Of a DNA stretch of 64,000 nt, positions 21,607 to 52,306 are shown one piece after another. The stretch comes from Ehretia macrophylla. Taxonomy: Eukaryota; Streptophyta; Magnoliopsida; Boraginales; Ehretiaceae. Each line of letters begins with the position of its first letter. Within the stretch, counting starts at the first letter, position 1. Below the pieces are notes generated by a model that saw only the letters and a list, made by a program, of their open reading frames with translations, searched no databases and was not told the DNA's origin. The DNA is taken from positions 23,833,498 through 23,897,497 of the forward strand of contig CM075767.1 in assembly GCA_037974665.1 (NCBI GenBank), read 5' to 3'. Both the position numbers and the translations under genes were made by a program.

Positions 21607-21915
21607 ATGCTGAACATGGCTCTTTCCTCTTCTTTAATATCCTTCGTTCTTTCGCAACTTCTCATCTTTTACTTCACTATGGGGGAGAATACATCCCAGT
21701 CTAACTGCACTAAGTCTTTTGAATGTGGAAGTCCTGGAGTCATAATGAGCTTTCCTTTCTCCAAATTTACTGAACCAAGTTGTGGCTTGTGTGGTAAAAT
21801 TGTGATGCTAAGCCATTTCCAACAATCAATCTGTGGCCTGGGGTAGAGGTACAATTGGAATTCCTCAAGAATGAAAAGAAAGGTTATTGCATGACTTTTG
21901 CAGCATCGCGTTAAT
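21607..21915 (+). pseudogene. Lone type I ectodomain remnant (C)
   Basis: Encodes a signal peptide close to that of copies B and E (MALSSSLISFVLSQLLIFYF) and the start of the GUB_WAK_bind-like domain (CTKSFECGSPG, MSFPFSKFTEPSCGL). A frame slip near 21790 follows; in the new frame the protein-like sequence continues (DAKPFPTINLWPG, then NEKKGYCMTF) to a stop near 21913. The WAK_assoc end, membrane exon and kinase of its own are missing; the next kinase downstream belongs to D. It could be an alternative first exon of the C-D unit or simply a truncated copy. As it stands it would give only a short secreted peptide. Confidence 0.75.
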
Positions 21916-22518
21916 TACGTTTTTTACTTCAAAATTTTTTATGTTAGACACGTCTTTTCTCACTTTAATTCCATCCAGTGACTGAGAATCTCTGTTTCAC
22001 CTTAAATTTCTAAATGACCTATTTCTATTCCAACAGAAGTTTCCATTTTCATTGACAATATTCACGTAATAGCGCTCGTTGCGTGTAAAGAGATCAGTCT
22101 AGTGGCCTGGGTAAGCTCTTAAGATGTGGAGGAGAGACTTAGATTACATCTCACGTTCAAATCAGTTAAAAAGTCATTTTTCTTAAAGATGAATCTTATA
22201 GGCTTTGTATTAGACTAATCTCGACTATGTCTCATCTAAATAAGATCATATTTTTCTAAAATTTAACAACATGATGTAAACCCAAATTTTTTTTTCCAAA
22301 TATAGTTTTCCTTCATAGAAAAATATCCACATAATAGCTAGACTAAGTTTGGCAAAGGTCCGTCTCATGTCGCTGCATGAAAATAGTGAAAGCAGAAGTA
22401 AATATTCGAACTCTTGAACCTCTCCTACAATGGTTAAATCTCCATCCATCTATAGAGCTAGCTTGTTGCCGTTTCCCTACTCTCATCTCTCTCTACTCTC
22501 TCTCTCTCACACAGAGAA
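21916..22518. other. Spacer between ectodomain C and copy D
   Basis: No coding sequence was recognised. The last 60 bp before the ATG of D are CT-rich (CTCTCTCTACTCTCTCTCTC at about 22487), a leader composition common in plants, and could be the 5' UTR of D. Confidence 0.4.
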
Positions 22519-23185
22519 ATGCATGTCAATCTCTACCAACCCTTTTCTCTGCTGATCACAATTAGCCTCGTCTACATTCCAATATCTTTCTGGGAAGAAA
22601 ATGAGCAATATCTAAGCTGTGGTAAGTTACTTCACTGTGGAGACCTTCACGATGTTGGCTATCCTTTCTATGGAGAAGGCCGACCTGTCCACTGTGGCCA
22701 TCCAGGTTTCGAGTTAAACTGCGATAAAAATAGGGTAAATAGTACTATAACCCCCTATGGTTAAACAAAAGTGCACAGGACCCCTCTGTATTTTCAAAAG
22801 TGCACCACAACCCCCGGTGGTTTTAAAAATGTAACACCATAACCCCCTCCGTCAAAAAACTGTTACTTTTAACGGAGAATGCATTGTACGCGCGTTTAAT
22901 GCGATTTTTCATATTTTTTGGCTTAAATCATTATTTAGTTTGACAAAAATATCCTTGTATATATATATATATATATATATATATATATATATATATATAT
23001 ATTATTATTTTTTTTTTTTTTTTTTTTTTTTTTTTTCTTAGCAGCTCCCACCCCTCCCACATCAACCCTTCCCCCCACCCCACCCCACCCCACCCCAACC
23101 CAAATTGCTCCGATTATAAAATCTCTAGGGTTTTTTTTTTGCTGCATTTTAATCACAAAAAGCTCTCGGTTAATTTGATTTGGAA

Positions 23186-23386
23186 ATGAGTAAGCTTTTA
23201 GGATTATCAAGGTTCAAGAGCTTGGTTCAGTTGCGATCCCGATCAGCTTCTGGTACCGGAGCTGCGAAGACGGTGGCCTTCGTTTCGCGAGCTTCTTCCA
23301 ATTCTGTTTCTCTCAGAAGCTTCGCGAACTTGAAGCTCACAGCATTTTTTTTTTTTCCAGAAAAAAATTTTTTGGTTTTGTGTTGA
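23186..23386 (+). pseudogene. Captured presequence-like fragment in the Pack-MULE
   Basis: An open frame of 66 codons starting MSKLLGLSRFKSLVQLRSRS and continuing with many Arg, Ser and Ala and almost no acidic residues (SGTGAAKTVAFVSRASSNSV, SLRSFANLKL), then an F-rich tail that looks like noncoding run-on. The composition is that of a mitochondrial or plastid targeting peptide. GC content and codon use differ sharply from the AT-rich surroundings, as expected for a captured exon. The parent gene was not recognised. Whether it is expressed is unknown. Confidence 0.5.
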
Positions 23387-23510
23387 AATTTTTGGATAAT
23401 TTGAGTTATGTGCTGAATTTTAATTACCATCAAGCTGAATTACTATTATTGAGGTTTGTAGTTGTGGTGGTGGTGGTGGTGGTGGTGGTGGTGATGTTAG
23501 AATTATGATC

Positions 23511-23692
23511 TGTCTTGCCTAAAGTGCTCTTGTTATTGTGCCACCAAACCTTTAGCACACCTTTAAATCTTCATCAACACCAATCTCATTGCAGAACTCA
23601 CTAATCAAATCTTCGTCGTGCTTCTGCATCTTCCACCCAACTTTCTCAGCAAATTCTACCATTTTATCCTTATGATCTTGCGTGAATTGAGG
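23511..23692 (-). pseudogene. Captured ZF-HD homeodomain fragment in the Pack-MULE
   Basis: On the minus strand the sequence reads FTQDHKDKMVEFAEKVGWKM, then QKHDEDLISEFCNEIGVDED, then LKV. After a short frame slip and stop it resumes in another frame as KVWWHNNKSTLGK. This is the plant zinc-finger homeodomain (ZF-HD) signature: (R/K)FT.EQK.KM.EFAEK.GW..QK.DE....FC.E.GV...V.KVWMHNNK. It is about 60 residues without the ZF dimerisation domain, so it is a fragment of a transcription-factor exon carried by the element. The frameshift rules out an intact domain. Confidence 0.8.
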
Positions 23693-49925: not shown

Positions 49926-50160
49926 AACCGTAAAGTTTACAAATGTGTTGTAGTTTAGTGGTTTGAATCATAATTCTCAACTGAATTGCCACAAAAAAAC
50001 CCTAAAGTTTGCGAAATTATATGATTTAATTCCGGTAAATTACAACTGCCTTAACTTAGCTTGTGATGACCCAAAAGAAAAAGACCAAATATATATATTT
50101 TTTAAAAATTTAACGAAGGTTTTTAAGCCAATATTACATCACTTAAAATATTAATTTTAA

Positions 50161-50221
50161 AAAATCGATTTTGAGATATCTCGCTTTTAAAGCAAGAATC
50201 ATACCACTAGACCAAATGACT
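50161..50221 (-). tRNA. tRNA-Pro-like pseudogene or SINE head
   Basis: The minus strand reads GTCATTTGGTCTAGTGGTAT, then GATTCTTGCTTTAAAAGCGAGATATC. This matches the 5' two-thirds of plant tRNA-Pro: A box TAGTGGTATGATTC and an anticodon stem CTTGC/GCGAG with a loop altered from the usual TGG anticodon. The T arm is decayed (AAAATCGATTTT in place of a GTTCGATTC B box). It is therefore a tRNA-derived relic or the head of a SINE, not a working tRNA. Confidence 0.6.
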
Positions 50222-50516
50222 AGTCTGTCCAAATAAATTTTTAGCGGCCTAAAATTATATTTTTGTAATAGTATTAGTTTTTCTAAAAATTTTATGAAAA
50301 AACTAACCAGTCTATCACTCGCAATGCATGTGCAAACAAAAAAGAAAAAAAAATAGGTACAATAGTCAAATAATAAATCCTCTCTTTATTTTTCCTTCTC
50401 AATCTTTTTTCTTTTCCGAGCACTAGTTCAATACCATTTACAATCTTTACCAGTATCACATTGTTCATTTTGATTGTTATGAGAAGTTCATGAATTTTTC
50501 AAATGCAAGATAAGGT

Positions 50517-50640
50517 TATATATATATATATATATATATATATATATATATATATATATATATATATATATATATATATATATATATATATATATATATA
50601 TATATATATATATATTTATATATATATATATTTATATATA
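50517..50640. repeat. (TA)n microsatellite, about 120 bp
   Basis: About sixty TA units with two TTTATA interruptions near 50615 and 50631. It lies between an ectodomain scrap of F and a LINE 3' end, possibly grown from the LINE tail. Length will vary between individuals. Confidence 0.95.
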
Positions 50641-50930
50641 TTTTGTTTGATCAGCAACATAAAATTTCATTCCACTATCCAAAAAAAAAAGATTTGTACA
50701 AGTGTATCTTATACAAAAACTTACAGCAACAACCTTGAAACAAATTAAACTAACTCGTTAAGGTTCCATAATTTGATTAACTTCATAGTCCTTCAATTAT
50801 TGTAAATCTTTCGAGTTGACAGAATCTTCCATCGCACTTGATTCTTGATCCTCTGGATAAGTTGATCCTCATTTGAGAATTCATTTTTAAAAATTCTTGT
50901 CTTTCGCTCATTCCACAAGTTTTTATTTAG
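50641..50930 (-). mobile_element. LINE 3' fragment
   Basis: On the minus strand one frame reads KNLWNERKTRIFKNEFSNED and continues about 20 residues to a stop, the usual C-terminal WNERN.RIF region of plant L1 ORF2. About 190 bp of 3' UTR then leads into the (TA)n tract. It is 5'-truncated and inserted within the ectodomain of copy F. Confidence 0.6.
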
Positions 50931-52306
50931 ATGCTAACGACTTCAATAATTAATTTATATAGTTAGCAAATTTTATTTGGAATGGCATCTTTGCGTTGAT
51001 TGTTATGATTGTCACCAACAAAGGCGGCCAATAGACTGATGGTATTCACTTTCTATGACACTAAAATTATCATATTAGCAATTTGATTGTTTGCGTTTTG
51101 GTTTAATTTTTCAGCAGGAAGTCATAAATTCCGACTTATTCTTGGCATAGGTACCTCCCCATTTCATTGAAAAAATTGTTTAATTCCATATTCCTATATT
51201 TTACAATTTTTTTTTCTTTACAAAATGCAATTGCCTCAACTTGTGGAGTTGCAATACTCACAGTTATAGTCTTCTGCTTAAGAAGGAAGTATTCAATTTT
51301 CAATTTTAAAAGAGGCCAACACCAAAATATGGAACTCTTGTTAAAGAACTACGGGTCACTTGCTCCGAAGAGGTACCATTATTCTGATGTTAAGAAAATG
51401 ACAAGTTCTTTCAAGATTAGACTAGGTCAAGGAGGCTTCGATTCTGTATACAAACGAAAACTTTGTGATGGTAGTCTTGTTGCAGTGAAGGTTTTGAATA
51501 ACACAAACGGAAATGGAGAAGAATTTATTAATGAGGTTGCAAGCATTAGTAGGACTTCTCATGTTAACATTGTGAAGCTTCTTGGTTTCTGTTTTGAGGG
51601 CACCAAAAGAGCTCTAATCTATGAGTTCATGCCTAATGGATCCCTTGAGAAGTTCATCTATGAGAAAAAATCATTGATGGATCGCCAATTGGGATAACAA
51701 ACATTATACAAAATTGCAGTAGGCATTGCTCGAGGATTAGAGTATTTACATTGTCGTTGTAATACTCAAATTGTGCACTTTGACATAAAGCCGCATAACA
51801 TTCTTCTTGATGAACAGTTTTCTCCTAAAATTTCTGATTTTGGCCTTTCTAAGTTATCTACTCAGACAAATGTATCAATATTGGGTGCGCGAGGGACAAT
51901 TGGATATATTGCTCCAGAAGTTGTTTGCAGAAATGTCGGAGGGGTCTCTCATAAGTCAGATGTCTATAGCTATGGGATGATGATTCTTGAAATGGTTGGA
52001 GGAAGAAAGAATGTTGATGCTGGAGTCAATCGTACCAGTGAGATATACTATCCACATTGGATCTACAAACAACTTGAACTAAACGAAAAACTTGGATTTG
52101 ATGGAGTTTTAGATGAAGAAGAAAATGAGAAAGCACGCAATATGGTTATAGTGAGCTTGTGGTGCATACAAACAGATCCCTCAATTCGACCATCAATGAC
52201 TAAGGTGTTGGAAATGTTGGAAGGGAACTTGGAATCCTTACAAATTCCTCCCAAGCCCTATTTATATTCTCCCTCCCGATCACCAGTCGAATCGTCAAGT
52301 GTATAA

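Follow-up and report, generated by a model that had tools for sequence, protein, structure and literature searches.

Plant receptor kinases are known to evolve by domain shuffling, in which a kinase already present gains a new sensor through an intron of compatible phase, and there is reportedly also a paper on the mini-exons of LRK10 genes. Among the closest described systems is LRK10L1 (AT1G18390) of Arabidopsis, which is reported to produce two transcripts from distinct promoters (PMC10573068, PMC10337256); just under 50% of LRK10L groups in Arabidopsis are reported to be dispensable (PMC12382012). Here we analyze a 64-kb stretch of the 1.58 Gb genome of Ehretia macrophylla (C4:23833498-23897497, hereafter the window; bare coordinates refer to it, and features lie on its forward strand unless stated otherwise), which covers the right-hand portion of a receptor-kinase tandem array at approximately 22.63-23.89 Mb of C4 and includes several units, labelled B to G, that carry all or some of a sensor exon, a membrane part and a kinase. 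In our view, the window is probably the decayed end of an LRK10-like tandem array, in which a sensor exon, that of unit D, was captured from the locus of another subfamily. The subfamilies concerned are presumably LRK10L1 and LRK10L2. At least 48 kinase units were mapped in it by coordinates, from the matches listed and after merging fragments: 42 with K2, the array's own kinase, and six with K1, a kinase that shares 27-39% protein identity with K2 across the copies compared. This number is a lower bound, as further kinase remnants, matched by a C-lobe query alone, lie outside the map. The window was compared with other C4 copies (L029-L036 and L040), with locus L037 at C7 and with locus L039 at C15 (C15:339800-346400).

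The sensor and the kinase of D are of different subfamily parentage. Namely, the D sensor is 86% identical to a C7 sensor, whereas the D kinase is 80, 77, 88, 85, 74, 83, 81, 80, 86 and 82% identical to ten other K2 kinases of the array, 60% identical to a C2 kinase and 37% identical to that of C7 (all values for protein). Because the sensor is C7-like and the kinase, at 74-88%, belongs with array K2 rather than with C7, D is a true chimera, with a C7-type sensor on an array K2 kinase, and L029 (C4:23594900) is its sister. The C7-type match extends over the upstream region of the captured sensor (21848-22518), the second C7 sensor exon and intron 1 as far as L037 position 7740. On its 5' side lies C (21607-21847), the remnant of the 5' end of a type I sensor exon, approximately 80 codons long and with one frame change, in which type I residues 6-62 are found at 21616-21789 and DNA identity to type I exons continues until 21834. 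The junction falls at about 21840-21848, followed by C7-type sequence (L037 from about 5232). The same junction (type I to 21834, C7-type from about 21848) is seen in L032 (C4:23181800) and, bar a short deletion, in L030 and L031, so that a type I 5' remnant precedes the D-like sensor in four of six C4 copies (the window, L030, L031 and L032). On the 3' side, 29066-29597 matches C7 intron 1, and at 29583-29606 this C7-type intron runs into a type I sensor tail, which starts at about codon 213 and is now part of intron 1 (junction and tail at 29598-29700, the right edge being approximate). It is followed by a type I mini-exon (29971-30015) and the membrane and kinase exon of K2 type (30131-31248). 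In other words, the C7 segment sits between type I codon 81 or so, in C, and codon 213 or so, near 29606. L029 has the same 3' junction and likewise matches C7 up to L037 7740; its sensor frame is open and its kinase frameshifted.

The D sensor exon, which starts at 22519, is complete, lying in three pieces around two insertions: the first piece (22519-22732) carries GUB_WAK_bind, the second (23966-24209) an in-frame stop, the only one in the exon, and the third (28742-29065) WAK_assoc, with a phase-1 donor at 29066. Its profile scores are 47.2 bits for PF13947 (cut-off 29.4; C4:23856115) and 66.6 bits for PF14380 (cut-off 27). The first insertion (22733-23965, no strand assigned) is bounded by terminal inverted repeats (22733-23004 and 23698-23965, 71%), and the second (24210-28741, reverse strand), read by eye from its translation, is one that we take to be Copia-like. 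With the two insertions and the stop in its sensor, and another stop in its kinase (30700-30702), the coding frame of D is not intact, and indeed all window units examined, B to G, are broken or kinase-less. As for the type I sensors, for which B served as reference (complete sensor exon at 11641-12361), those of B, E and L040 score 15.8, 26.5 and 25.6 bits, below the PF14380 cut-off, and the PF13947 profile found no match in B and E. Their kinship rests instead on position, cysteines and the exons that follow.

A preliminary description of this DNA had stated that every sensor exon that could be read stops in phase 1 at a GT donor and that the membrane exons of B, D, E and F complete the split codon. 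Reading the donors bore out the former for all four sensor exons (ends at 12361 in B, 29065 in D, 35131 in E and 47424 in G). As for the latter, the codons do fit, at about 13379 in B, 29971 in D, about 37664 in E and 51115 in F, but the completing exon is a small juxtamembrane mini-exon (45 nucleotides in D, 36 in F), with the membrane helix in the exon after it (30131 in D). The same phase recurs wherever the donor pattern located a sensor donor elsewhere, namely in the two sensors of C7, in C2 and in further C4 copies, and three C15 sensor donors fit it in a weak reading by eye; the type I donor of L032 did not match the donor pattern. Since the agreement in phase across sensors comes from homology and not from independent events, phase 1 is a shared ancestral feature, one that permits swaps and does not show one. 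Matching phase as a proof of swapping was therefore rejected, the same phase recurring at other sensor donors. The acceptor of the membrane exon reads GCAG in B, D, E, gene 2 of L018, L029, L034 and L009; F has AA at 51229-51230, where the acceptor AG is expected, and gene 1 of L018 is also without AG.

The argument for swapping comes instead from the pairings found in the array. In particular, a D-like sensor precedes a K1 kinase in L030, L031 and L033; L030 reads open through its sensor, membrane and kinase exons, and the sensor of L033 is frameshifted. In L040, where the frame changes at about 1343, K1 follows a type I sensor, and two further type I/K1 units are known by coordinates only (C4, 22987524/22989016 and 23563021/23564501). 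All four pairings, type I/K2, D-like/K2, D-like/K1 and type I/K1, thus occur in the C4 array. What is more, L040 matches L030 from position 3122 on (90% over 1,891 nucleotides) and L030 matches C7 only to 3154, and the change of partner must therefore lie in intron 1. Taken together, the four pairings and this one partner change in intron 1 support exon shuffling.

Selection was assessed from the ratio of nonsynonymous to synonymous substitution rates (dN/dS), calculated by the method of Nei and Gojobori. It is 0.58-1.09 for D-like sensors (five sensors, 10 pairs), 0.62-0.76 for G-like sensors (four, 6 pairs), 0.23-0.33 for K2 kinases (six, 15 pairs) and 0.29-0.57 for array K1 kinases (four, 6 pairs with few differences). 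The synonymous rate (dS) of D-like sensors is 0.05-0.12 among the window copy, L029, L030 and C7, and 0.22-0.29 in pairs with the frameshifted L033; it is saturated for nine K1 pairs with C7 or C15. The sensor swaps thus look young, and clear constraint appears only on the kinases. The D kinase, for its part, is a mosaic: the first 600 alignment columns are 92-94% L029-like, and the next 750 are 94-98% F-like. Likewise, D and F (30600-31500 and 51650-52600) are 94-98% identical over the 3' half of the kinase and the start of the 3' flank, and 76-83% identical at its 5' end. Such a mosaic indicates gene conversion within the array.

The following course of events would account for these observations. 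A C7-derived segment, consisting of the upstream region, the sensor exon and part of intron 1, would have arrived once, perhaps through copying during break repair; duplication of the array would then have multiplied it, and exchange in intron 1, along with gene conversion, would have led to the other pairings. Each sensor would act as a first exon that has an upstream region, an ATG, a signal-like N-terminus and a phase-1 donor of its own and lacks an acceptor, so that a sensor upstream of a kinase could in principle splice straight to it. That said, several points weigh against such a capture. L032 has, at 738-2841, a type I remnant, the 5' part of a D-like sensor and then a complete, open-frame type I sensor, an order that differs from the other D-like copies, although L032 may well be another recombinant. 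As far as L029 and L033 were read, neither shows a type I 5' remnant. The kinase of C7 is not the source of K1, the two being 66% identical. Between D and L029, the kinase dS is 0.29 and the sensor dS 0.11, a mismatch that requires conversion. Finally, the reading draws on the DNA of one genome.

The second pair of neighbours in the window, G and F, is of a different nature. G (sensor exon 46685-47424, with a frame change near 46950) carries GUB_WAK_bind and WAK_assoc, at 61.5 bits for PF13947 and 78.1 bits for PF14380, and is only about 27% identical to the D-like sensor. It is 28% and 30% identical to C15 sensors c and a, respectively, and a small tree places it together with these two (support 0.988). 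Four close copies of it exist, all on C4: those of the window and L034 are frameshifted, those of L035 and L036 open, and no kinase of its own was found in the stretches read of any of the four. In F, a scrap of a type I sensor (residues 206-225, at 50965-51024) is followed by a mini-exon (51115-51150) and a K2 membrane and kinase exon (51231-52306) that lacks its acceptor AG and has an in-frame stop at 51695-51697. The order of G and then K2 recurs in L034, where more of the decayed type I sensor is retained. G is thus probably a separate, solitary sensor exon, and F a type I gene that appears to have lost its sensor. That the G-like exons of L035 and L036 are open because of selective constraint was considered and rejected, since identity is 95% throughout the 2-kb block, at a dN/dS of 0.67.

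How else could this arrangement have come about? The preliminary description had seen in it an ancestral unit in which each kinase could be joined to either of two sensor first exons, depending on the promoter used; C-D and G-F would be decayed examples of it in reversed order. The orders C-D-kinase and G-F-kinase are real, and both C and F are of type I, as had been said. However, C is a 5' remnant, the leftover of a type I exon broken by the D segment and hence a truncated flank of that segment, and F retains a mere scrap, so that neither pair holds two complete sensors. Nor do D and G form the single class, "type II", to which they had been assigned: they are different sensors and G is kinase-less in its four copies, which also removes the reversal. 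In addition, 28 of the 48 mapped units consist of a single type I sensor before K2. Even though two or more sensor matches, fragments included, lie in the 6 kb upstream of 11 of the 48, and two and three sensors precede one kinase at C7 and C15, we regard the ancestral two-sensor unit as improbable. What does stand of the earlier proposal is the shuffling of sensor types onto one kinase type, as seen in D with its defined intron 1 junction common to L029.

Ranked second to segment capture, and in itself unlikely, is a scenario in which an entire C7-type gene entered a type I sensor exon and gave an L030-like arrangement, from which D would have followed by a later deletion from intron 1 to the sensor tail. 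L030, L031 and L033, in which a D-like sensor and K1 precede a type I fragment starting at about codon 44, are what one would expect in that case. Yet the C7 match of L030 ends at L037 7708 and that of D and L029 at 7740, and beyond 7708 L030 follows L040, a type I/K1 gene that is likewise fused on its 3' side to type I codon 44. Moreover, the 66% identity of K1 to the C7 kinase contrasts with 88% for the sensors. More remote still is the idea that neighbouring genes simply lost different parts, leaving unrelated sensors and kinases adjacent and with no functional joining. While the kinase-less G, in its four copies, and F, with its type I scrap before the mini-exon, fit such a picture, and D-like sensors, with dN/dS of 0.58-1.09, give no sign of constraint, the C7-type intron of D runs directly into the type I tail and mini-exon, and it does so in two copies. 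Capture of a C7-derived segment therefore remains our preferred explanation.

Several sensors before one kinase are better documented elsewhere in the genome. At C7, sensor exons at about 486-1380 and at 6407-7193 of L037 are followed by one membrane and kinase part (7861-9226), whose kinase we take to resemble AT1G18390. At C15, three open sensor exons (about 12-729, 1366-2176 and 3657-4341 of L039, reverse complement) also precede one kinase part. A tblastn search with K1, K2 and membrane-exon queries found no kinase between the sensor exons at either locus. The C2 locus has a kinase at 62609685 preceded by four sensors with open frames (62598057, 62601583, 62604698 and 62607887), and no kinase lies between them among the matches listed. 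A layout of several sensors and one kinase is thus present at C7 (two) and C15 (three), with perhaps four sensors at C2, and the idea of two promoters fits C7 and C15 better than it does the window, whose units are broken. One candidate set of this kind lies in the C4 array itself, at 22.980-22.990 Mb, where G, type I and again type I sensors are followed by K1, all frames being open in the searches. Moreover, C15 sensor a has a copy (94% identity, open frame of 306 amino acids) 6 Mb away, at C15:6530489-6531202, with no kinase nearby among the matches listed; sensor exons therefore do seem to move alone. One may tentatively go further and picture LRK10L1-type loci as sensor libraries (two sensors at C7, three at C15, perhaps four at C2) that feed one kinase by promoter choice, with the C4 array as a record of the process; we consider this possible, if rather less than likely. 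Since a sensor exon has a donor and no acceptor, a copy landing upstream of any kinase would, on the library view, be a new sensor at once.

A few other features of the surroundings should be mentioned. Four full-length type I sensors (C4:23279141, 23307693, 23702643 and 23731746) each lie some 9 kb upstream of a unit with only a sensor tail (residues 157-239) and K2, which points to a larger repeated unit. Among the matches listed, a large related set of sensors and kinases occupies both strands of C6 at 10.0-12.8 Mb. A second Copia-like element lies in the window at 55078-60212 on the reverse strand; its terminal repeats are direct (55078-55291 and 59999-60212, 94%). A search of NCBIfam returned bacterial models only, all far under their cut-offs.

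New sensors on proven plant receptor kinases are usually inferred from old gene trees. Here, such a change is directly legible: the dead copies of the window record how sensor swapping happens, with the breaks in the same intron. The swap in D looks young (dS of 0.05-0.12 among the sensors of D, L029, L030 and C7), and a partner change maps to one conserved phase-1 intron. The loci with several sensors, in turn, suggest an easy way in which a lone sensor exon could be of immediate use. In the accessible parts of the literature searched, which was mostly outside subscription journals, no report was found of more than two LRK10L1 first exons or of a D-type sensor swap. Arabidopsis LRK10L1 is like the C7 locus in having one kinase and alternative sensor-coding first exons, two of them at C7; it differs from C15, with three sensor exons, and from C2, with perhaps four, and the present loci are known from DNA alone. 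With the tandem LRK10-like kinases, which combine GUB_WAK_bind and WAK_assoc, the array shares the sensor exon, the mini-exon, the membrane and kinase exon and a high turnover. It differs from them in bringing together two sensor types and two kinase types, with all four pairings in one array. Finally, what sets this case apart from domain shuffling in general is that a single genome shows the locus from which the sensor came, the two junctions, a sister copy and the opposite pairing.

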